Made by a program: the position numbers and the translations under genes. Positions 6,018 to 24,939 of a DNA stretch of 64,000 bases are shown here, piece after piece. The notes under the pieces were generated by a model. That model was not told the DNA's origin. It worked only from the letters and a program-made list of their open reading frames with translations, and did no database searches. Position 1 is the first letter of the stretch. Every line of letters starts with the position of its first letter. The stretch is from Populus alba (Eukaryota > Streptophyta > Magnoliopsida > Malpighiales > Salicaceae), in assembly GCF_005239225.2 (NCBI RefSeq), contig NC_133294.1, positions 2,542,001 through 2,606,000 on the forward strand. The letters are read 5' to 3'.

Positions 6018-7799
6018 TGATTAGAAGTACTTAAAAGTGCATTGTTTATCAAGGGTTTATATCATCAATTTTTGCACTTAAAGTATCAATAACTCCTTAA
6101 CTAAAGCATGTTTTATAATAACAAGTCTTAATATTCATAAAAATACCCTAATATATGGTTAAATGTTCATTCTAAATGCAGGCATATCACATAAATCAAA
6201 GGGATTGATTGAATGAATTAAACTACTGAAATTTTGAACGATAAAGGAGGGTGAAGCTTAGAAAGGAGAAGTCTGAATCTGTCCTGTATCCCAACATCTG
6301 TTCAGTGTTCAGTTCCCAATATCTCGAGCTCTAGATATCCAAAATGATCTGAGAATGTTTTACAGAGATTTGATTAAGACTATAGGCCTACAACTTTCAT
6401 TTGGTACATGAAGATCTAAGAAGGCCGTTTTCAAGTCCAAATTATAAGCAACAACGGAGAAGTTCAAAGCTGTCCTGCAGCCCAAACACTATTCAGTGTT
6501 CAGCCCATATCTTGAGTTCTAGGGAAGTCCAAATGACCTCATCTGTTTTTGCTGGAAAGCTAAAGAGAGATTACTCGCAGAACTTTCATTTGGACATCTA
6601 GACCCAGTTCTGATGCTAGCATTTTTTGTTTATTAAGACAAGAAGATAAGGATTTTCACCAAGTCAAAAGGTGGCCACCCACAATCAACAATTAGTCATC
6701 AAATCAATAATTCTGAATTTTGGCCTATAAAAGGAGGCATTGCCATGTATTTTAGGGGCTTGGTTGTTCAGAATCCGAAGTTCATTGCTCTTTATTTCTC
6801 TCTTTATTATTTTTTTGTAAATTCTAAGTTTTGCTTTCATTTAATTTCTTTGTTTATGCTTTTTCATTTCCTTTCATTTCCTTAGTTAACCTTGTATTTA
6901 TTTTATGTTCTTGTTTTATTTATTTATGTTTTTTCTTCTTCATTATGTTTAGCTAAGTTTATTATGTCAAGGTGAAAAAGTTTACACTAATGGTGGTAAG
7001 AACAAGTATGTGTAAACTCAATATGGACCTTAAATGTTTAATATTAACATGTCTATTCTTTTTATCTTTACTAATTCTTAATATCTTGCTTGTTAAATGG
7101 TTAATCTAAATTGTGTTTGTATAATACTTGGTACAACAAATGCTTGGCACTCTCATAACCCAATCGTATGGTATTACCCTACACCTAGGGCTATGAAAGG
7201 TACTTGATTTGTTGTTAACATCAGTTAACATAATGAATTCCTGACAATATTTAAAAGTTTGGTGTATGTAAATAAGATAATTAATATGATCATGTTAATA
7301 ATTTATAATGAGCTATTAATGACAAATCATCCGACTGGAACCTCCTTCGTGTGTGTTTCCAATTGAGTAATAAGAGTTTATACTATACTTGTTTGAAATA
7401 TCATTGGTGGATCCTCTAACCTTGACATTTGTCTTTATTATTGTTTAATCCTTACATTAATCTTCCATCTCAAAGTTCTCATTAATTTCTTCCTGCTTTC
7501 TTTTTATTGTTATTATTATTATTATTACTAATATTATTTAGTATTAGTATTATTTATTACTATTATTATTATTATTATTATTATTTACATTCTTGTTATA
7601 TTTTATGTACGTTAAGTATGCTCTGTGTTTTGATCAAGGATCCTGATATTGTTGGTCTTGCCTTGTTCATTCGCATCAGAAATCTGTTTATATAATATAA
7701 TATATCTCTTTGATTTTTTTCATAAACTCAGTATATAGGCTGGAAACCTGTGACCCGATTCTTTTAGATCATTCTCAGGTATAACAACGCCACGTATTG

Positions 7800-7864
<65 letters not shown>

Positions 7865-8133
7865 ATTAATATTATTATTACTATTATTACTATTAATATT
7901 ATTTATTACTATTACTATTATTAATATTATTATTATTATTATTATATATTATTATTATTATTGTTAGTATTATTATTATTGTTGTTGTTGTTATTTTGTT
8001 ATTATTGTTGTTGTCTTGTTATTTATATCATTTATACAATTAACCTCTCTGTGGTTCGACTCGATCTTGCCGGGTTATTTATTACTTCGACACTCCTACA
8101 CTTGGAGAAGACATCAATCTTTTGGTCGTGTCA
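6018..8133 (+). repeat. 5' LTR of the Athila-type element
   Basis: Long terminal repeat, about 2116 bp, matching 16442-18474 over its whole length. It begins TGATTAGAAGTAC and ends GTGTCA, seven bases before the primer site. It contains a CCTATAAAAGG segment near 6725, a likely TATA box for element transcription, and two (ATT)n arrays at about 7507-7585 and 7801-7985. Relative to the 3' copy, its first half differs by many single-base insertions, while the second half is nearly identical apart from array length. Confidence 0.9.
7801..7985. repeat. (ATT)n microsatellite inside 5' LTR
   Basis: An almost pure ATT/TTA trinucleotide run with ACT and AAT interruptions, about 185 bases. The matching array in the 3' LTR (about 18177-18330) is shorter and differently interrupted, so the tract has changed length since insertion. 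A smaller ATT array precedes it at about 7507-7585. Confidence 0.9.
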
Positions 8134-8140
8134 AGTTTTT

Positions 8141-8160
8141 TGGCGCCGTTGCCGGAGAGG
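8141..8160 (+). promoter_or_regulatory. Primer-binding site, tRNA-Asp type
   Basis: The sequence TGGCGCCGTTGCCGG lies just downstream of the 5' LTR. It is complementary to the 3' end of plant tRNA-Asp, the usual minus-strand primer of Athila and related plant Ty3 elements. Its position fixes the 3' edge of the 5' LTR. Confidence 0.88.
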
Positions 8161-8357: not shown

Positions 8358-10092
8358 ATGGCCGAAGAAGATAACCAGTCACTTTCATAATGAGAATAAT
8401 GAGAATAATAAGAATAACCGTGTTAGGACACTTAAAGACCACATGAATCCCACAAAAACAAGTACACCCTCATGCATAGTTTTCCCTCCTGATGCATCTC
8501 ATTTTAATTTTAAGCCAGGCATTATTCAACTTTTACCTTCTTTTAATGGCTTAGATCTAGAAAATCCATACTTGTATTGAGAGAATTTGAAGAAGTTTGT
8601 AACACCTATAATGATTAAATTGTAGCATGAATACATTAGATTAAAGCTTTTTCCTTTTTCATTAAAAGATAAAGCTATAAAGATGGCTACAAAAATCTTA
8701 GATCAGAATCCATTCGTGCTTGGGGATGAAATGCAACAACAGTTTTTAAAAGAAGTTTTTTCCATCTCACAGAACCAACTTTCAAAGACAAACACCACGT
8801 TCATCAAAAACCAGGAGAAACATTTTACCAATGTTGGGATAGGTATTGAGACTTGCTTAATACTTGCCCTCATCATGGTTTTGAAACATGGAGATTGGTT
8901 TTCATAAACTTTATGAAGGATTAACACCTAAAGATAGGCAAATGGTTGAATTGATGTGCAATGGAACTTTTAAAGATAAAGACCCTAATGAAGTAATGGA
9001 GTACTTTAGACTTGCTAGCTGAAAATGCAACAAAATTGGGACACTAAGGGCACTTATGAGCACCAAGTAAAACCAACCATACAATCTAGTGGAGGTATGT
9101 ATAACCTTAGGGAAGATCATGACCTCCAAGCCAAGTTTACATCTTTAGCTAGAAAAGTCGAGGCACTAGAATTGAAAAAGAGTGGTCAATTAAAATCTGT
9201 TTAAGACATTGTGTGTCAAATCTGTGAAACAAATGAACATGCAACCAATAACTGTCCAACTTTGCCTTCTTTCAAGGAATGTCTCCATGAACAAGCCCAT
9301 GCCTTAAACAATTTCCAAAGGCCCAATCATAACCCATACTCGCAAACATACAATCCTGGTTGGAGAAATCACCCAAATTTCAATTGGAAGAGTGATAACA
9401 ATAATGCACAAACTACACAGCCACCGTTTCAAGCACACCATAATTTCCAAAATTCTCATGGATATGCACCTCCTTATGCTCCACCTCCTAGAAGAAATCT
9501 TGAGGAAACATTGCATGCATTCATTGAAAAGCAAGAGACAATCAACACTCAACTTACTCAAAGCATGACAAATTTTAAAGATGCTCTTGCAAAATTCACA
9601 TATGCTCTCAGTTTTCAAGAGAAAGGTAAGTTTCCATCTTTACCACAACAAAATTCAAAGGGGCAATACAATGCAAATGCAAGTAGTTCCAAAAGCCAAC
9701 ACATGGATCAAGTCAAATCAGTCATCACTCTTCGCAGTGGTAAGGTTATTGAAAAACCCACTCTTGAACCTTGTGAGAAAGATGATGAGTCAATCTCTGA
9801 GGGTAAGGAAGGGGTTGAATTTGAACATTGTGAAGAAAAGACTGATTCTCCGCCAGCACTTCCATTTCCTCATGCCATGACCAAACAAAGGAAAGTCAAT
9901 CACAATTCTGAAATCCTTGAAATTTTCAAACAGGTAAGGATCAATATACCTTTGTTGGATGCTATTAACCAGGTACCTTCCTATGCTAAAATTTTTGAAA
10001 GATCTATGCACTGTGAAGAGAAAACTGAATGTGAAAAAGAAAGCCTTTTTGCCGAACAAGTAAGTGCTATTTTCAGAATAATAATGCTTTGA
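8358..10092 (+). pseudogene. Athila-type gag (frameshifted)
   Basis: Remnant of the capsid/nucleocapsid gene. The likely start codon at 8358 begins MAEEDNQ, and the frame then breaks within a few dozen bases. Recognisable Athila gag wording continues in changing frames through 8317-8580, 8580-8680 and 8683-8907. The last 293 codons (9211-10092) are open and begin with a perfect zinc knuckle, CQICETNEHATNNC (CX2CX4HX4C), followed by YNPGWRNHPNF, a signature of this family, and a charged C-terminal tail. In an intact element this protein packages the RNA in cytoplasmic particles. At least four frame changes or stops precede the zinc knuckle, so no functional Gag is made from this copy, unless the indels are sequence errors. 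Confidence 0.85.
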
Positions 10093-12449: not shown

Positions 12450-13580
12450 ATGAACCCTTATTTATTTAAATATTGTCCTGATCAAATATTTCGAAGATGC
12501 ATTCCTTACAATGAGGTAAGTAGTGTCATTAAATTTTGTCATTCTGAGGCATGTGGGGGTCATTTTCTCATCAAGAAAGACAACTGCAAAAATCTTACAA
12601 AGTGGATTTTACTGGGGCCACCATGTTCAAAGACTTCACATGCATTCTGCAAGACTTGTGAAAATTGTCAAAAGTTGGGATCTATTTTCAAAACGTCACA
12701 TGATGCTTTAAATCCTATTCTTGTCATTGAGATCTTTGATTGTTGGGGTAATAGATTTTATGGGTCCATTTCCTCCATCATTTGGTTTCTTGTATATATT
12801 GGTCGCAGTAGATTATGTTTCAAAATGGATAGAGGCAATTCCAAGTAGAACCAATGATCACAAAACAGTGATAAAATTTTTGAAAGAAAACATTTTAAGT
12901 CGATTCGGAATCCCTCGAGCCATGATAAGTGATGGTGGAACACATTTCTGCAACAAGCCATTTGAATCTTTAATGAAGAAATATGGAATCACACACAAAG
13001 TTGCCACCCCTTATCACCCTCAGACGAGTGGACATGTAGAACTTGCTAATAGGGAGCTCAAAGAGATCTTGGAGAAAACGGCAAACCCTAATCGAACTGC
13101 ATATAAAACATCATTAGGTATGTCACCCTATAGACTAGTCACTTGCCTGTGGAAATTGAACATAAAGCTTATTAGGCTATTAAAGCTTACAATTCAAACA
13201 TTGATGATGCTAGTCAGCTGCGAAAATTGCAAATAAATGAGCTTGAGGAAATAAGAAATGATGTATATGACAATTCAAGAATTCATAAAGCAAGAATCAA
13301 AGAGTTTCATGACAAGAAAATATTGAGAAAAACATTCAATGTTGGTCAAAAAGTCTTGCTTTATAATTCTCGACTCCATTTATTTCCTGGAAAACTAAGA
13401 TCAAGATGGAGTGGTCCTTTTATTGTGAAACATGTGTATCCATATGGGGCCTGTGATATCGAAAATCCAAAGAATGATAATGTTTTCAAGGTAAATGACC
13501 ATCGTTTAAAAGTTTATTTTGACAATTTTTCAGTTGAAAATGACTCTATTGAATTGGGTGATCCTGTATATAAAGATTGA
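12450..13580 (+). pseudogene. Integrase of the Athila-type element (frameshifted)
   Basis: Integrase in three overlapping frames. The N-terminal zinc domain (HSEACGGHF ... CKTCENCQKLG) is in 12450-12700. The catalytic core lies in a second frame from 12740, with DFMGPFPPSFGFLYILVAVD, then MISDGGTHFCN and the GHVELANRELKEIL stretch holding the third acidic residue (D, D, E). The C-terminal part continues in a third frame from 13227 to 13580 with [20 protein letters not shown] and SGPFIV. Frame changes near 12730 and 13130-13230 disable it. The core integrates element DNA into chromosomes. Confidence 0.85.
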
Positions 13581-13780: not shown

Positions 13781-14377
13781 ATGGACACCACTCTTGAAAA
13801 ATTGAAAAAGTATTTTCCCGCTCTGCCTCAGAATGCGATTACAAAAATTTACCGTGCTAGATGTGCAAGATTGAGATTGTTAATGAACCATGGAATTCCT
13901 GAAGATATTCGCTGGCTGATTGAAGCAAAGATCCGATTATCAGGTGAGTCCTCCAATTCTTTCATTTTATACATGCCTGGAACAGGTAAAAGCACTTTTG
14001 CGAAGAAACATCGTGCAAAACGACTGAAAGTCTATCACCGATGTGCTAGATGGACTTGTAATACGACATGTCGTTCTTTAGGAATGGTATCTGTAAACCG
14101 TGAAGATAAAATACAATTCATTAAGGATGGCCTGAGTAAGGGGTCTTTAGATAATTTTCTATTGACTCTTGAGACGCACCCTATTGGAGATGTGCATCGT
14201 GCAATTTATGATTTATGGCCCCAATTCCATAAAGAACATGCTCGACTTAGTCTTGGGAATCTGACTAAAAAAGACCCTGTTTGCCAGTTTTTAAGAAAAC
14301 TGGATGGGAAGCCCTATCCCCGACCCATAGAGGGCGTTTTAAGCCGTTCTGGACGTAAAAACCAAGGGAAGATGTGA
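13781..14377 (+). CDS. Uncharacterised 198-aa protein in the env-like position
   Basis: An intact frame beginning MDTTLEKLKKYFPALP, preceded by a pyrimidine-rich AG and ending 215 bases before the LOG-like gene. I do not recognise the family. It is basic and rich in Arg/Lys, with a cysteine cluster at residues 88, 93 and 97 (C-x4-C-x3-C), a GTGKST segment at 67-72 and a conserved-looking stretch with VHRAIYDLWPQFHKEH near residues 149-164. There is no signal peptide or membrane segment, so it does not look like a classical envelope protein. GTGKST lacks the first glycine of a Walker A motif, so a nucleotide-binding role is not supported. Its intactness next to a broken pol suggests recent constraint or recent capture. 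It could be a host fragment or an element-specific protein. Confidence 0.6.
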   Translation: MDTTLEKLKKYFPALPQNAITKIYRARCARLRLLMNHGIPEDIRWLIEAKIRLSGESSNSFILYMPGTGKSTFAKKHRAKRLKVYHRCARWTCNTTCRSLGMVSVNREDKIQFIKDGLSKGSLDNFLLTLETHPIGDVHRAIYDLWPQFHKEHARLSLGNLTKKDPVCQFLRKLDGKPYPRPIEGVLSRSGRKNQGKM

Positions 14378-14429
14378 GCCATAAATCACAACTCCTGTAC
14401 ATACATATGCTTTTTCAAAATAAATAATT

Positions 14430-14466
14430 AATAAAGAGAGAGAGAGAGTGTGTGTGTGTGTGTGTG
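14430..14466. repeat. (GA)n(GT)n compound microsatellite
   Basis: A GAGAGAGA run followed directly by a GTGTGTGT run, between the 198-aa frame and the LOG-like gene. Such CT/GA tracts are common in plant 5' leaders and promoters, so it may be part of a captured host promoter. Confidence 0.85.
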
Positions 14467-14518
14467 AGACTACAACTGGCCTACATATAGGTGGTATGAT
14501 TGTATTTTCAATTTCTAA

Positions 14519-14592
14519 TCTATAAATTCTTCTCTTCCTTCCCTTCATTTCTACTCAACCCATACATTCATCAAATACAGACGTGTGTAGAA
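14519..14592 (+). promoter_or_regulatory. Putative TATA box and leader of the LOG-like gene
   Basis: CTATAAATT at about 14520-14528 lies 65-70 bases upstream of the ATG at 14593 and is followed by a pyrimidine-rich leader (TCTTCTCTTCCTTCCC) typical of plant 5' UTRs. If functional, the cargo gene would have its own promoter and not depend on the LTR. The leader also ends in CATCAAATACAG, which could serve as a splice acceptor for an LTR-driven transcript; the two readings cannot be separated from sequence. Confidence 0.4.
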
Positions 14593-15246
14593 ATGGCAGG
14601 TTCCTCAAGTAATCATATAAACAAAATTTGTGTTTTTGGTGGATCCAGTCCCGGGAAAGAAAAAGAGTTTTTAGAATCAGCAAATCATCTTGGTCAGGTA
14701 CTAGCTGAGCGAAAGATTCATTTAGTGTATGAAGGAGGCAACCTTGGGTTAATGGGGGGAGTGTCAATAACTGCATCTTTAGGAGGTAGTCAAGTTTTGA
14801 GGGTTGTCCCCAAAGCTTTAGCACAAGGGGACATCATTGGAAAAACAATTGGAGAGGAATTACAAGTCCCCACAATGTCTGATCGACTGAACGCCATGTT
14901 TAACCATGCTGATGCCTTCATTGCCTTACCAGGTGGTCTGGGCACATTGGAAGAGATCTTTCATATTTCCTCTTGGGCCCAACTGCACATTCACCATAAA
15001 CCCATAGGTTTGTTAAATGTTAATGGTTTTTATGATAAGTTGTTGTCTTTTCTTGATCATGCTGTGGAACAGGAGTTTCTAACATCTTCAGCACGACAAA
15101 TCATAATCTCTGCTGCTACTGCTGAACAATTGATTGACCAACTACAATCTTTCATCCCTGTAATTAATCCCTCCATGAGTCGAATAAATTGGTTAACTAA
15201 GGAAAGCCGTAAAAAGCTTAGATTGGATTTGAGCCTTTGTTTGTAA
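14593..15246 (+). CDS. LOG-type cytokinin riboside 5'-monophosphate phosphoribohydrolase, retroelement cargo
   Basis: An intact 217-aa protein of the LOG (lonely guy; often labelled lysine decarboxylase-like) family, which hydrolyses cytokinin nucleotides to free-base cytokinin plus ribose 5-phosphate in the cytosol. Evidence is the Rossmann-like start KICVFGGSSPGKEKEF (residues 11-26), VYEGGNLGLMGGVS (45-58), the signature PGGLGTLEE (113-121) with the catalytic-type glutamate at 120, an arginine at 98, and WAQLHIHHKPIGLLNV (128-143). Length matches the family (about 210-230 aa). The ATG was chosen because the 31 in-frame codons before it encode a hydrophobic UTR-like stretch. Oddities: the usual GGGxxGLMG is EGGNLGLMG, the usual ERK is DRL, and PGGYGT is PGGLGT. 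Known plant LOG genes have several introns; this copy has none and sits between integrase and the 3' LTR in the same orientation, so it is most simply an mRNA-derived capture. Activity is unproven. Confidence 0.85.
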   Translation: MAGSSSNHINKICVFGGSSPGKEKEFLESANHLGQVLAERKIHLVYEGGNLGLMGGVSITASLGGSQVLRVVPKALAQGDIIGKTIGEELQVPTMSDRLNAMFNHADAFIALPGGLGTLEEIFHISSWAQLHIHHKPIGLLNVNGFYDKLLSFLDHAVEQEFLTSSARQIIISAATAEQLIDQLQSFIPVINPSMSRINWLTKESRKKLRLDLSLCL

Positions 15247-15415
15247 AAACTATCTTTTGGTTTTATTATTGTGTTTTGTTGTTTCTTATATTTGTGTAAG
15301 TGTGTTTCAGGTTTGTCAGTATTCATTATTTCAGGTGATGTCTTCTATACTCTATCTTTCTACCTTAAGACATTGAGGACAATGTCTCATTTTGGTTGGG
15401 GGGAAAGGGTACTAG

Positions 15416-15446
<31 letters not shown>

Positions 15447-16430
15447 GTGTTTTCTATTTCATAAACTATTTGCAAACCTGTTGTTACTAGGATGACAGAG
15501 TAAAAGGAGTTATTTTGTTAAAGTGACTCTTGAGACGCATCTTAGTAAACATTCTTAACAAGGTCTATCATAATACTTCTTGAAATATCTAAGTCTACAA
15601 ACTCTCATATTGTTAACACTTGATTCTGCTCATATGCTCATTTAACAAGTATTCTTAAATCTTCATTTTCACACACACACACTTTAACATATGATTGTGG
15701 GTTGCACAATTGGATTATTACATTATTTATGTTCTTTTGTTAAAGGTAACAACTAAGGGAAATGGATAGTATATAATTTGTCTTAAAAAAAAAAAAAAAA
15801 CTTTCTTTTATAATAATGATGAATAAAAACGTAGATAAGTTTGGTTTCGTAGCCTCCCTAACCTAAGGCAATTAAGCCGAAGGGGTGTTTTAACACTTAA
15901 TACCCTAAAGTCAACTGACTTGGGAGCTATTGGCCCAAAGCTTGTTACATGGGTTAAGGAGAAAAGCTTAAGGGAATCAAACATTGCACTATCTATGTAT
16001 CAGTATCTGCAACCCGAGTTGCTAAGCTCGTAGAGGTGTCTCAACACCTAATGCCCTAAGACCAACTGGTCTGGGAGTCATTAGCCTAAAGCTCGATACA
16101 TGGGTTAAAGATGCATTGTGTTTTAAGTTGTATGTGTAAATAAATAAAAAAAAAAGAAGAAAAAATAATCCCAACCAAGGAAGTTAACCTTAAACATTAG
16201 AACATAATATTGTTTTCTTCCAACAATAGCCCATCATATATGTTTTTCATACATTGAGCATATAAAAAGAAGGTTTATTAATATCTTGTTTAAGAAATAT
16301 GAAGCAGAAATGAGAGTTTGTTTATCTGGATAGATTAATGGAAGTTTAATGATGAATGCCTTGCTTTATGGAATTTGCAAATTGTTTTTCTATTTTAACA
16401 CTTTGATTACTAGGGACTAGTAATAAGCTG
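15247..16430 (+). other. Non-coding 3' internal region of the Athila-type element
   Basis: No open frame of note between the LOG-like stop and the purine tract. It holds a segment reading ATTGAGGACAATGTC followed by GGTTGGGGGGAAA (about 15372-15410), reminiscent of motifs found after the last ORF in this lineage, a 25-base poly-A run (about 15420-15444) and a second A-run near 15785. The poly-A runs could mark 3' ends of captured mRNA, but they do not directly abut the LOG frame. Confidence 0.6.
15850..16115. repeat. Two direct copies of an approximately 85-bp segment
   Basis: Copies at about 15870-15957 and 16023-16108 share the order TTAACACTTAAT/TCAACACCTAAT, CCCTAAAG or CCCTAAGA, ACTGACTTGGGAG/ACTGGTCTGGGAG and TACATGGGTTAA. 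They are separated by about 150 bases and diverged by roughly a quarter of positions by eye. Confidence 0.7.
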
Positions 16431-16440
16431 GTTGGGGGGT
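16431..16440 (+). promoter_or_regulatory. Polypurine tract of the Athila-type element
   Basis: GGTTGGGGGG lies immediately before the TG of the 3' LTR, where plus-strand DNA synthesis is primed in LTR elements. Confidence 0.7.
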
Positions 16441-16441
16441 G

Positions 16442-18474
16442 TGATTAGTACTTAAAAGTGCATGTTTATCAAGGGTTTATATCATCATTTTGCACTTAAA
16501 GTATCAATAACTCCTTAACTAAAGCATGTTTTATAATAGCAAGTCTAATATTATAAAATACCCTAATATATGGTAAATTTTCATCCTAAATGCAGGTATA
16601 TCACATAAATCAAAGGATTGATTGATGAATTAAACTACTGAAATTTTGAAGATAAAGAAGGGTGAAGCTTAGAAAGGAGAAGTCCGAATCTGTCCTGCAG
16701 CCCAATACTGTTCAGTGTTCAGCCCATATCTCGAGCTCTAGCTATCCAAATGATCTGAAAATTTTACAGAGATTTGATAAGACATAGGCCTACAACTTTC
16801 ATTTGGACATCAAGATCTAAGAAGGCCGTTTTCAAGTCCATATTATAGCAACAACGGAGAAGTCCGAAGCTGTCCTGCAACCCAAACACTATTCAGTGTT
16901 CAGCCCATATCTTGAGTTCTAGAAGTCCAAATGACCTCCTCTGTTTTTTGATGGAAAGCTAAGAGAATTTCCCAGAACTTTCATTTGGACATCTAGACCC
17001 AGTTCTGATGCTAGCATTTTTGTTTTATTAAGACAAGAAGATAAGGATTTTCACCAAGTCAAAAGGTGGCCACCCACTCAACAATTAGTCATCAAATCAA
17101 TAATTCCGAATTTTGGCCTATAAAAGGAGGCATTTGCCATGTATTTAGGGGCTTGGTTGTTCAGATCAAGTTCATGCTCTTTATTTCTCTCTTTATATTT
17201 TTTGTAATTCTTAAGTTTTGCTTTCATTAATTTCTTGTTTATGCTTTTCATTTCATTTCCTTTCCTTAGTTAACTTGTATTTTATTTATGTTCTTGTTTT
17301 ATTTATTTATGTTTTTTCTTCTTCATTATGTTTAGCTAAGTTTATTATGTCAAGGTGAAAAAGTTACACTAATGGTGTAAGAACAAGTATGGTGTAAACT
17401 CAATATGGACCTTAATGTTTAATATTAACATGTCTTATTTTTTTATCTTACTAATTCTTAATATCTTGCTTGTTAAATGGTTAATCTAAATTTGTGTTGT
17501 ATAATACTTGGTACAACAAATGCTTGACACTCTCATAACCCAACCGTATGGTATTACCTACAGTTCGGGTTATGAAAGGTACTTGATTTGTTGTTAACAT
17601 CAGTTAACATAATGAATTCCTGACAATATTTAAAAGTTTGGTGTTATGTAAATAAGATAATTAATATGATCATGTTAATAATTTATAATGAGCTATTAAT
17701 GACAAATCATCCGACTGGAACCTCCTTCGTGTGTGGTTTCCAAATTGAGTAATAAGAGTTTATACTATACTTGTTTGAAATATCATTGGTGGATCCTCTA
17801 ACCTTGACATTTGTCTTTATTATTGTTTAATCCTTACATTAATCTTCCATCTCAAAGTTCTCATTAATTTCTTCCTGCTTTTTTTTATTGTTATTATTAT
17901 TATTATTACTAATATTATTATTATTATTATTATTATTACTACTATTATTATTATTATTGTTTACATTCTTGTTATATTTTATGTACGTTAAGTATGCTCT
18001 GTGTTTTGATCAAGGATCCTGATATTGTTGGTCTTGCCTTGTTCATTCGCATCAGAAATCTGTTTATATAATATAATATATCTCTTTGATTTTTTTCATA
18101 AACTCATTATATAGGCTGGAAACTTGTGACCCGATCTTTTAGATCATTCTCAGGTATAACAATGCCACGTATTGAGTATTATTATTATTATTATTATTAT
18201 TACTATTAATATTATTATTACTATTATTAGTATTATTATTATTATTATTATTACTACTATTAATATATATTATTACTATTATTAGTATTATTATTATTAT
18301 TATTTGTATTATTATTATTATTGTTGTTGTTATTTTTGTTATTATTGTTGTTGTCTTGTTTTTTTATAATTTATACAATTAACCTCTCTGTGGTTCGACC
18401 CCGATCTTGCCGGGTTATTTATTACTTCGACACTCCTGCACTTGGGAGAAGACATCAATCTTTTGGTCTTGTCA
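16442..18474 (+). repeat. 3' LTR of the Athila-type element
   Basis: A 2033-bp repeat of 6018-8133, with the same TATA-like CCTATAAAAGG near 17118, the same AT-rich centre and an (ATT)n array at about 18177-18330. It ends CTTGTCA at 18474. Differences from the 5' copy are mainly one-base gaps in short homopolymers and a few transitions. Confidence 0.9.
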
Positions 18475-18814
18475 AATCCTTAGCAGGACCTTCAATCTTT
18501 CCCATCTTGATAGCTTGTTCAATTCCCTCAGCAATTCTCACAACATCATGTCAATCTTCCAATGTTGTTGTGGTTGTTTGAGGATTGTTGGAAACCCCTC
18601 AATAACTAGGCAATCTTGGTAGCGTACAAAAATAAAAACATGTGGAATCACACGTTGTCAAAACTGGAAGAGAGCTTGATGAATCTAAAGCTCCTCTATC
18701 TCCTCTTCGATTCCTCACTGACAGTGCAACAAACAACCACTTTTGCATTTTAATGCCGATACTGGAAGGAAACAATGATGGGAAATTTGAAACCATTGCA
18801 TCCCTTCTTGGATC
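18475..18814. other. 340-bp remnant between two retrotransposons
   Basis: Flanked by the Athila 3' LTR and the chromovirus LTR. On the minus strand, 18475-18533 reads DVVRIAEGIEQAIKMGKIEG, coding-like and perhaps a decayed retroelement gag; one stop lies upstream of it. On the plus strand, 18642-18814 reads through as a coding-like frame (ESHVVKTGRELDE ... EGNNDGKFETIASLLG) that runs on into the LTR. Neither could be assigned to a family with confidence. Confidence 0.35.
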
Positions 18815-19164
18815 TGTTATATTTCTTAGCTTGAGCTGGCAAATAAATATAGAAAAAAGAGTGTAAACTAACTTCGAGGGTAGTTTGGCCTCCAAAAGAC
18901 AATGGTCTTTTCTTAAGGATTGAATTCTGCTTAACATTTCATTTCAGACAAAGATTTAAATACAGAGAATCAGAGGAGTTGTTTCCTCAGTTTATGCCTA
19001 CTTAACAAACTAGTTATTTTGACTCCTGCTTCTAAGGAATTTAACAGCAACATTATTGACTAATTCAAACAAAATACAAAGTAAAATGATAACAAAATAC
19101 TAGTACATAAAACAATATCTTCAAGCAGACTTCCTCAGTAGACTAGGAGACTAGGATCGTAACA
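18815..19164 (-). repeat. 3' LTR of the chromovirus
   Basis: A 350-bp copy matching 24559-24939; on the plus strand it begins TGTTATATTTC and ends GTAACA. It is followed by CCTCCCCCTC, the complement of a purine tract (GAGGGGGAGG). It lacks a 31-base stretch around ACTCATAGTTTGTT that the other copy has. Confidence 0.88.
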
Positions 19165-19724: not shown

Positions 19725-20354
19725 CTAGCTGAGGTAAAGAAGAGGATTGTTCAATGTATGGACTAACTTTGGAGGCTTACATCCATAAACCGCTTCAAAA
19801 GGAGTATAGCCAGTAGAGGAGTTCACGTTAGTATTATGCCAATACTTTGCCAATATGAGGAATTGCATCCAATCTTTAGGCCGAAGGCTAACAAAACACC
19901 GAAGATAAGTCTGAAGACACCTGTTGATTACTTCCGTCTGATCGTCTGTTTGAGGATGATAGGAAGAACTGAAGTGGAGACTTGTCCCTTGTAACTTGAA
20001 TAACTGTTGCCAAAAGTCACTAAGAAAAACACGATCACGATCACTTACTATGGTTTTAGGCATGCCATGGATTTTGAACACATTATCGAAGAAGGCTTGT
20101 GCAACAGAGGAGGCTGTATAAAGATGAGACAGTGCAATGAAGTGAGCATATTTGGACAAGTGGTCCACGACAACAAAAATGACATTTTTACCTCTGGATT
20201 TGGGTAACCCATCGATAAAATCCATCAATATATCTTCCCAAATCTGGTGTGGAACTAGAAGTGGCTGCAAAAGACCTGCATGATTAACATTTTCTGACTT
20301 GTTGTGTTGACAAGTTTCACACTCCTGAATATACTGTTTTATAAAGGAGCACAT
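19725..20354 (-). pseudogene. Integrase core of the chromovirus
   Basis: A 209-codon open stretch on the minus strand with the end of the zinc domain (CETCQHNK), the catalytic core MDFIDGLPKSRGKNVIFVVV, TIVSDRD and the third acidic residue in QTDDQTEVINRCLQ. It ends before the GPF-type C-terminal region and is out of frame with the preceding RNase H (20538-20960) and the chromodomain. Confidence 0.85.
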
Positions 20355-24542: not shown

Positions 24543-24558
24543 TTGGCTCTGATACCAC
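24543..24558 (-). promoter_or_regulatory. Primer-binding site, tRNA-iMet type
   Basis: On the minus strand TGGTATCAGAGCCA follows the 5' LTR (plus strand TGGCTCTGATACCA), the classic plant LTR-retrotransposon primer site complementary to initiator tRNA-Met. Confidence 0.85.
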
Positions 24559-24939
24559 TGTTATATTTCTTAGCTTGAGCTGGCAAATAAATATAGAAAA
24601 AAGAGTGTAAACTAACTTCGAGGGTAGCTTGGCCTCCAAAAGACAATGGTCTTTTCTTAAGGATTGAATTCTGCTTAACATTTCATTTCAAACAAAGATT
24701 TAAATACAGAGAATCAGAGGAGTTATTTCCTCAGTTTACGCCTACTTATACTCATAGTTTGTTACTTAACAAACTAGTTATTTTGACTACTGCTTCTAAG
24801 GAATTTAACAGCAATTTAATAGCAACATTATTGACTAATTCAAACAAAAGACCAAGTAAAATGATAACAAAATACTAGTACGTAAAACAATATCTTCAAG
24901 CAGACTTCCTTAGTAGACTAGGAGACTAGGATTGTAACA
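24559..24939 (-). repeat. 5' LTR of the chromovirus
   Basis: A 381-bp copy of 18815-19164, beginning TGTTATATTTC and ending TTGTAACA on the plus strand. It has a roughly 31-base insertion (about 24745-24775), which itself looks like a local duplication of CTTA/ACTTA-flanked sequence. Confidence 0.88.

Follow-up and report, generated by a model that had tools for sequence, protein, structure and literature searches.

To our knowledge, the accessory genes of plant LTR retrotransposons are mostly without a known function. A YgdH (LOG) domain in Gypsy elements is said to have been noted by Steinbauerova in 2011, in agreement with the report that comes closest to the present case. In that report, the domain was found in Gypsy consensuses of Citrus sinensis and C. 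clementina and, once a count filter was dropped, in those of Populus trichocarpa (PMC9289625). The core idea of a LOG gene in poplar gypsy elements is already in print, since the domain described there is likewise a non-canonical LOG-family domain of plant Gypsy elements, Populus included. The portion of the paper covered here devotes one sentence to it, without position, integrity, selection, active site or neighbours, all of which are given here for Populus alba. The first-pass annotation of this locus had regarded such a gene as unusual cargo for a retrotransposon, a view that is weakened by this precedent from Citrus and Populus.

An acquired accessory enzyme is also found in Ty3/gypsy elements of orchids, which hold an m6A demethylase (AlkB-like) domain, and AlkB has been found in Betaflexiviridae too (PMC9289625). 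In these elements both the enzyme and the host are different, and the same portion of that paper describes no partner resembling the viral nucleic-acid-binding proteins (NABPs). The carlavirus-type cysteine-rich proteins (CRPs; PF01623, PF05515), which bind nucleic acid, combine a basic motif with a four-Cys zinc-finger-like motif, as does ORF182, the gene found upstream of LOG in the family described here, and suppression of RNA silencing has been shown for some of them. Both motifs are described in PMC3689765, where the finger of potato virus H reads CX2CX9CX4C, while that of ORF182 reads CX2CX4CX3C. Unlike the viral proteins, ORF182 is borne by an LTR retrotransposon and, at 182 amino acids, has additional regions at its N and C termini.

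The main text of PMC6317226 mentions neither LOG, YgdH nor Populus, and the terms Lonely Guy, cytokinin, lysine decarboxylase, Populus, carla- and nucleic acid binding are likewise unmentioned in the main text of PMC7264820. Among listed papers that mention both retrotransposons and Betaflexiviridae, neither Carla_C4 nor Viral_NABP occurred, by name or by accession. A pair formed by a viral-NABP-like gene and LOG was not found in the titles and abstracts of the element literature searched, which covered few subscription papers. Relative to that literature, the new points are a partner gene resembling viral NABPs, purifying selection acting on this gene and on LOG, the altered pocket, the element LOG group shared between plants, and the pol-deleted derivatives that keep the cassette.

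The element and its lineage

The window, meaning the whole stretch of 64,000 nucleotides of Populus alba DNA that was analysed, contains a gypsy element whose features are collected in Table 1. The first-pass annotation had placed an intact LOG frame with the motif PGGLGTLEE (residues 113-121) between integrase and the 3' LTR, in the orientation of the element and behind a second intact frame, and both frames were confirmed.

Table 1. Features of the LOG-bearing element, in window coordinates
Feature	Position	Strand	Basis
5' LTR, TGATTAG...TGTCA	~6018-8133	+	alignment with 3' LTR
Primer-binding-site-like stretch, TGGCGCCGTTGCCGG	8141-8155	+	read from sequence
Gag/protease-side frame, piece of broken polyprotein	9211-10092	+	no Pfam match
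Reverse transcriptase-RNase H frame, 580 codons	10621-12363	+	PF00078, PF17917, PF17919
Integrase core frame	12721-13236	+	PF00665, E=6.3e-17
Integrase C-terminal frame	13227-13580	+	named from position; no Pfam match
198-codon frame, window version of the family's ORF182 (viral-NABP-like)	13781-14377	+	no stop
Spacer with GA/GT repeat and TATAAAT stretch upstream of LOG	14378-14592	+	sequence
LOG-family phosphoribohydrolase frame, 217 codons	14593-15246	+	PF03641, E=1.3e-36; structures 2a33, 1ydh
Tail from LOG to 3' LTR, polypurine tract GGTTGGGGGG at its end	15247-16441	+	sequence
3' LTR	16442-18474	+	alignment with 5' LTR

The 5' and 3' LTRs, of ~2.1 and ~2.0 kb respectively, diverge by a K2P distance of ~0.065 (2052 columns, with a few flanking bases included), and inspection of their ends by eye gave no clear target-site duplication. 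The primer-binding-site-like stretch is presumably of the tRNA-Asp type. Between LOG and the 3' LTR, the tail of ~1.2 kb holds no listed long forward frame. Both gag and integrase are broken across several frames, which makes this copy defective and, in its present form, non-autonomous.

The LTRs, the order of reverse transcriptase, RNase H and integrase, and an extra forward ORF 3' of integrase are all Athila-type features, although they are not exclusive to Athila. The Athila ORF-1 domain PF03078, which is present in 16% of Athila elements (PMC6317226), had no match in the scanned frames, among which the broken gag region was scanned in part. From the original assignment to an Athila-type element, what stands is a gypsy element with an Athila-like layout.

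Other repeats are found in the same window. A tandem array of 41/80-bp units (28 copies of 41) occupies positions 2-1152 and is adjoined by a second one, of 59/239-bp units (19.5 copies of 59), at 1252-2418. Beyond the 3' LTR, a pair of direct repeats at 18814-19164 and 24558-24939 (98% and 95%), ~5.75 kb apart, are perhaps the LTRs of another retrotransposon, and the reverse-strand frame enclosed by them at 19725-20354 is integrase-like by eye.

LOG as a standard component of the family

The LOG frame of the window scores 126.1 bits against PF03641 (Pfam cut-off 27), and the solved structures nearest to it by sequence are those of Arabidopsis LOG3 and LOG8. The 416 Mb genome of P. alba gave 1248 unconfirmed first-look seeds with the LOG Pfam family and 1193 with the LOG DNA. 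Among the best 150 scored places, a ranking that favours intact copies, LOG was stop-free in 149. Twenty of these places, on 18 contigs, were retrieved, and the ORF182 region was at least partially present in all of them, together with an integrase piece in 17 and an LTR head in 18.

A census anchored on reverse transcriptase, with 75 scored matches out of 6132 candidates, gave a similar picture. In 56 of them a LOG match in the same orientation follows after 0.7-2.8 kb, and for the remaining 19 the retrieval of 751 bases at the expected place revealed LOG in 14, one of these consisting of its first 101 bases alone. In all, no fewer than 70 of the 75 scored matches are thus followed by LOG, which is a standard component of a multi-copy Ty3/gypsy family in P. 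alba. The recurrence of the ORF182-LOG arrangement on 18 contigs, together with this census, can be explained neither by chance nor by misassembly. The proposal that the element spreads LOG is borne out by these copies, and the concern that the junctions were misassembled is removed.

TATA-like words occur upstream of LOG in 51 of 53 copies and upstream of ORF182 in 41 of 53, uncontrolled counts that come from AT-rich, related copies; an internal promoter ahead of either gene would be a guess. RNA structure ahead of LOG gave no signal (z -1.6). Besides the main set, six element copies (L041-L046) have a LOG with a host-like FCGS near its start and an upstream gene that matches over its last 235 bases alone; they probably form a separate, older subfamily.

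Active site of the element LOG

In Corynebacterium CgLOG, Arg99 and Glu122 are the proposed catalytic residues, and the prenyl-group site is formed by Met96, His97, Lys100, Glu125 and Trp129 (PMC4979012). These places were compared in 45 frameshift-free poplar element LOGs, 44 of them distinct (L009 and L075 are one and the same copy). The catalytic residues are kept, with Arg98 present in 44/45 and Glu121 in 45/45, as are the Glu at the place of CgLOG Glu121 (45/45) and, within PGGxGTxxE, Gly117 (44/45) and Thr118 (43/45). The Met and the Trp of the prenyl pocket are each retained in 44/45. The other three pocket residues are replaced: His by Ser in 44/45, Lys by Leu (42) or Met (3) in all 45, and the Glu corresponding to CgLOG Glu125 by His in all 45. 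The element LOG thus has the family, the PGGxGTxxE motif and the catalytic Arg and Glu in common with AtLOG3 (2a33), AtLOG8 (1ydh) and CgLOG, and differs from them in these three pocket residues, in being intron-less and in being encoded by an element.

As judged by alignment, then, the poplar element LOG retains the hydrolytic residues while three of the five side-chain pocket residues are altered. Because the pocket is altered and the catalytic Arg and Glu are kept, we infer a changed substrate, and cytokinin activation by this protein is doubtful. An alternative would be that the element LOG is an ordinary cytokinin activator which favours transposition by favouring dividing, germ-line-forming meristem cells. 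The retained family match, motif and catalytic pair would agree with it, and so would the purifying selection on LOG (see below) and the canonical MHERK and EELFE stretches kept by the LOGs of Xanthoceras. The replaced pocket residues of the poplar copies argue against it, and plant LOGs that share the same conserved residues can still differ in product (PMC11593424), so the alternative is possible but rather unlikely.

The upstream gene ORF182

The gene preceding LOG is 182 codons long in 32 loci, some of which are overlapping pieces of one copy; the window version is longer, with its last ~16 codons in another frame than the family ORF182. PF05515 (Viral_NABP) is above its cut-off in 10/10 family copies and PF01623 (Carla_C4) in 9/10, whereas the window's own frame is below both. 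In a set of 34 diverse homologues, picked from the best 120 of 631, the two families match at E<=0.01 in 31 and 30 respectively, and the named sources among those 120 are Populus, Xanthoceras and Acer. The protein carries a basic motif, KKRRAKRL, followed by the zinc finger, in which one Cys is invariant and the other three are present at >=90% (n=34). The first-pass annotation had considered this frame to be env-like on account of its position, but no envelope family is among its Pfam matches, and the envelope reading was rejected.

The best reading of ORF182 is that of a small basic zinc-finger protein probably related to the nucleic-acid-binding proteins of carlavirus type. Its basic stretch and CCCC finger could instead have arisen independently, without common descent with the viral proteins. 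In line with this, the viral match is short (~85 residues for PF05515 and 30-37 for PF01623) and centred on the basic/Cys stretch, the single match in the PDB has E=0.25, and AlphaFold2 yielded a model of low confidence (pLDDT 54, pTM 0.30). The consistency of both Pfam matches across family copies and diverse homologues speaks against it, as does the placing of the finger directly after the basic motif, like in carlavirus CRPs (PMC3689765), and an independent origin is accordingly judged improbable.

Copy integrity and selection

Selection was assessed on 40 copies, the window included, which were chosen by similarity of their tails (15480-16430; 1449 first-look candidates) because picking for intact LOG was to be avoided. 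Within the stretches retrieved, LOG is present over >=90% of its length in 37 of them, including the poorly aligned L063 (74%), and is free of stops and frameshifts in 19 of the 37. For ORF182 the corresponding numbers are 33 of 40 and 22 of 33. A broken LOG in about half of the copies is as expected for dead insertions.

Pairwise dN/dS was calculated by NG86 with stops masked and rows with frameshifts or gaps dropped (for LOG, 4/23 in the near and 1/12 in the far subfamily; for ORF182, 4/23 and 3/12); L063, L067, L068, L072 and L073 were placed in neither subfamily. For LOG, dN/dS is 0.31 in the near subfamily, 0.37 in the far one, and 0.28 between them at a dS of 0.19 (0.17-0.43 in a codon bootstrap on every third pair), while shifted frames used as control give 0.71-1.15 overall and 0.97 and 1.15 between subfamilies. 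For ORF182, the values are 0.41, 0.26 and 0.21, against 0.45-0.73 and 0.94-1.43 in shifted frames, so the signal inside the near subfamily is weak (0.41 against a shifted value of 0.45). The values between subfamilies indicate purifying selection on both genes. Dead copies drift at a ratio of 1 and raise these means, so the lineage that does the copying should be under stronger selection than they express.

Some derivatives with deletions in pol retain both ORF182 and LOG. Five of the 20 retrieved copies (L009, L010, L011, L014 and L016) share a loss of the integrase core, from window position 12677 to 13343, and the same five plus L025 lack reverse transcriptase-RNase H (10647 to ~12207). The pol-side stretch is open over 394/397 codons in L011, 392/397 in L014, 334/397 in L010, 305/397 in L016 and 172/266 in L009. 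Among the five, dN/dS is 0.24 for LOG (0.13-0.57) and 0.19 for ORF182, which is no more than suggestive of selection for the cassette: in the LOG tree these derivatives are scattered instead of forming a single clade. They have probably recombined with full copies, and this may account for their intact LOG.

This scatter, as well as the LOG genes broken in half of the copies, could also fit a passenger captured once and copied without use, its low dN/dS being due to few recent sources and recombination. The gap between the between-subfamily dN/dS, at a dS of 0.19, and the values of the shifted frames makes this distinctly unlikely, as does a LOG frame that has stayed open and can still be recognised although its identity to Arabidopsis LOG3 is down to 47%. 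An assembly artefact or a single nested retrogene insertion can be set aside altogether, given the 20/20 copies with ORF182 region and LOG and the census of reverse transcriptase matches.

Origin of the element LOG

Host LOG genes of P. alba were sampled at four (L083-L086) of 19 host-type places. Introns follow ...ALPG and ...HNKP/HEKP/HDKP in all four, and L084 has two more farther upstream. The element frame is continuous across both of these places, and the absence of the two introns implies that LOG was taken up from spliced RNA.

A recent capture is not supported. At the last exon of Arabidopsis LOG3, the 19 host-type places (among them C16:8820690 and C6:10797587 of G000) have 65-96% identity, and the element copies stand apart at 50-56%, which speaks against one of today's host genes as a recent source. 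The element LOG is 47% identical to AtLOG3, 44% identical to AtLOG8, and 54-61% identical to four LOG stretches of P0253 and P0254 of Xanthoceras sorbifolium. In the P0253 gene model, two LOG stretches lie on either side of a gag/protease-like linker, and window positions 9820-9975 match this linker with 50% identity over 52 amino acids (tblastn, E=2.7e-15). An ORF182 homologue of Xanthoceras, P0202, is on a contig with the same length as that of P0253 (21981555 bases), apparently the same one. Linkage of ORF182 and LOG is therefore likely in Xanthoceras as well, with the limit that gene models may fuse distant exons.

A tree was built of 15 LOGs, namely seven presumed element, six host and two bacterial ones with long branches; three host rows were half-filled, and none of the host LOGs was from Xanthoceras. 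The element side comprises five LOGs from Populus, including two database entries that are taken to be element-borne, and two from Xanthoceras. These seven fall on one side of a branch with support 95/89, and the six host LOGs are set apart by a branch of their own (96/93). The capture of LOG thus looks old, as the element LOGs of poplar, a fabid, and of Xanthoceras, a malvid, group together and apart from the sampled host genes. The capture may have preceded the split of fabids and malvids, the element may have passed between the lineages, or two related host genes may have been captured separately. From the first-pass proposal that a processed host mRNA had been captured, the origin from spliced RNA stands and a recent date does not.

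Two further candidates were discarded. A poly(A) relic 3' of LOG does not serve as a mark of the capture, as an A-run of at least 8 is absent from 33/53 copies, while the remaining 20 have runs of 8-25. The 'LOGL10' proteins P0095 and P0120 were tried as the host parent and rejected, since their best place in P. alba is an element copy (89% over the first 45 residues). Together with P0244, these P. trichocarpa and P. nigra proteins have the 217 amino acids and the C-terminus of element LOGs, lie on contigs that differ in length, and look element-encoded.

Proposed role of the cassette and its meaning

The explanation that we consider rather probable is that P. alba hosts a high-copy Athila-like Ty3/gypsy family with a two-gene accessory cassette, ORF182 plus a perhaps retargeted LOG, between integrase and the 3' LTR, and that this cassette would serve the element. 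The LOG gene would have been acquired long ago from a spliced host LOG mRNA. ORF182 would bind nucleic acid and blunt RNA silencing, and the element LOG would hydrolyse a nucleotide in the cells that express the element. Its substrate might be a cytokinin monophosphate, for which the specificity of the enzyme would have changed, or a different nucleotide of the N-substituted or signalling kind. In both cases, the cassette would improve the success of the element itself.

A narrower version of this explanation, held tentatively and thought less likely to be right, is that of a counter-defence cassette formed by a virus-type silencing suppressor and a LOG that hydrolyses a non-cytokinin nucleotide, possibly one involved in stress or immunity, shared by fabids and malvids and maintained by selection.

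Two accessory genes of recognisable biochemistry lie side by side here, in a family for which a single genome gave no fewer than 150 scored LOG places, so the role of such genes for an element becomes testable. If ORF182 is indeed related to the carlavirus-type proteins, genes would have been shared between RNA viruses and plant retrotransposons. Finally, some of the 'LOGL10' models of poplars may be genes of elements, which would distort the counts of the LOG family.
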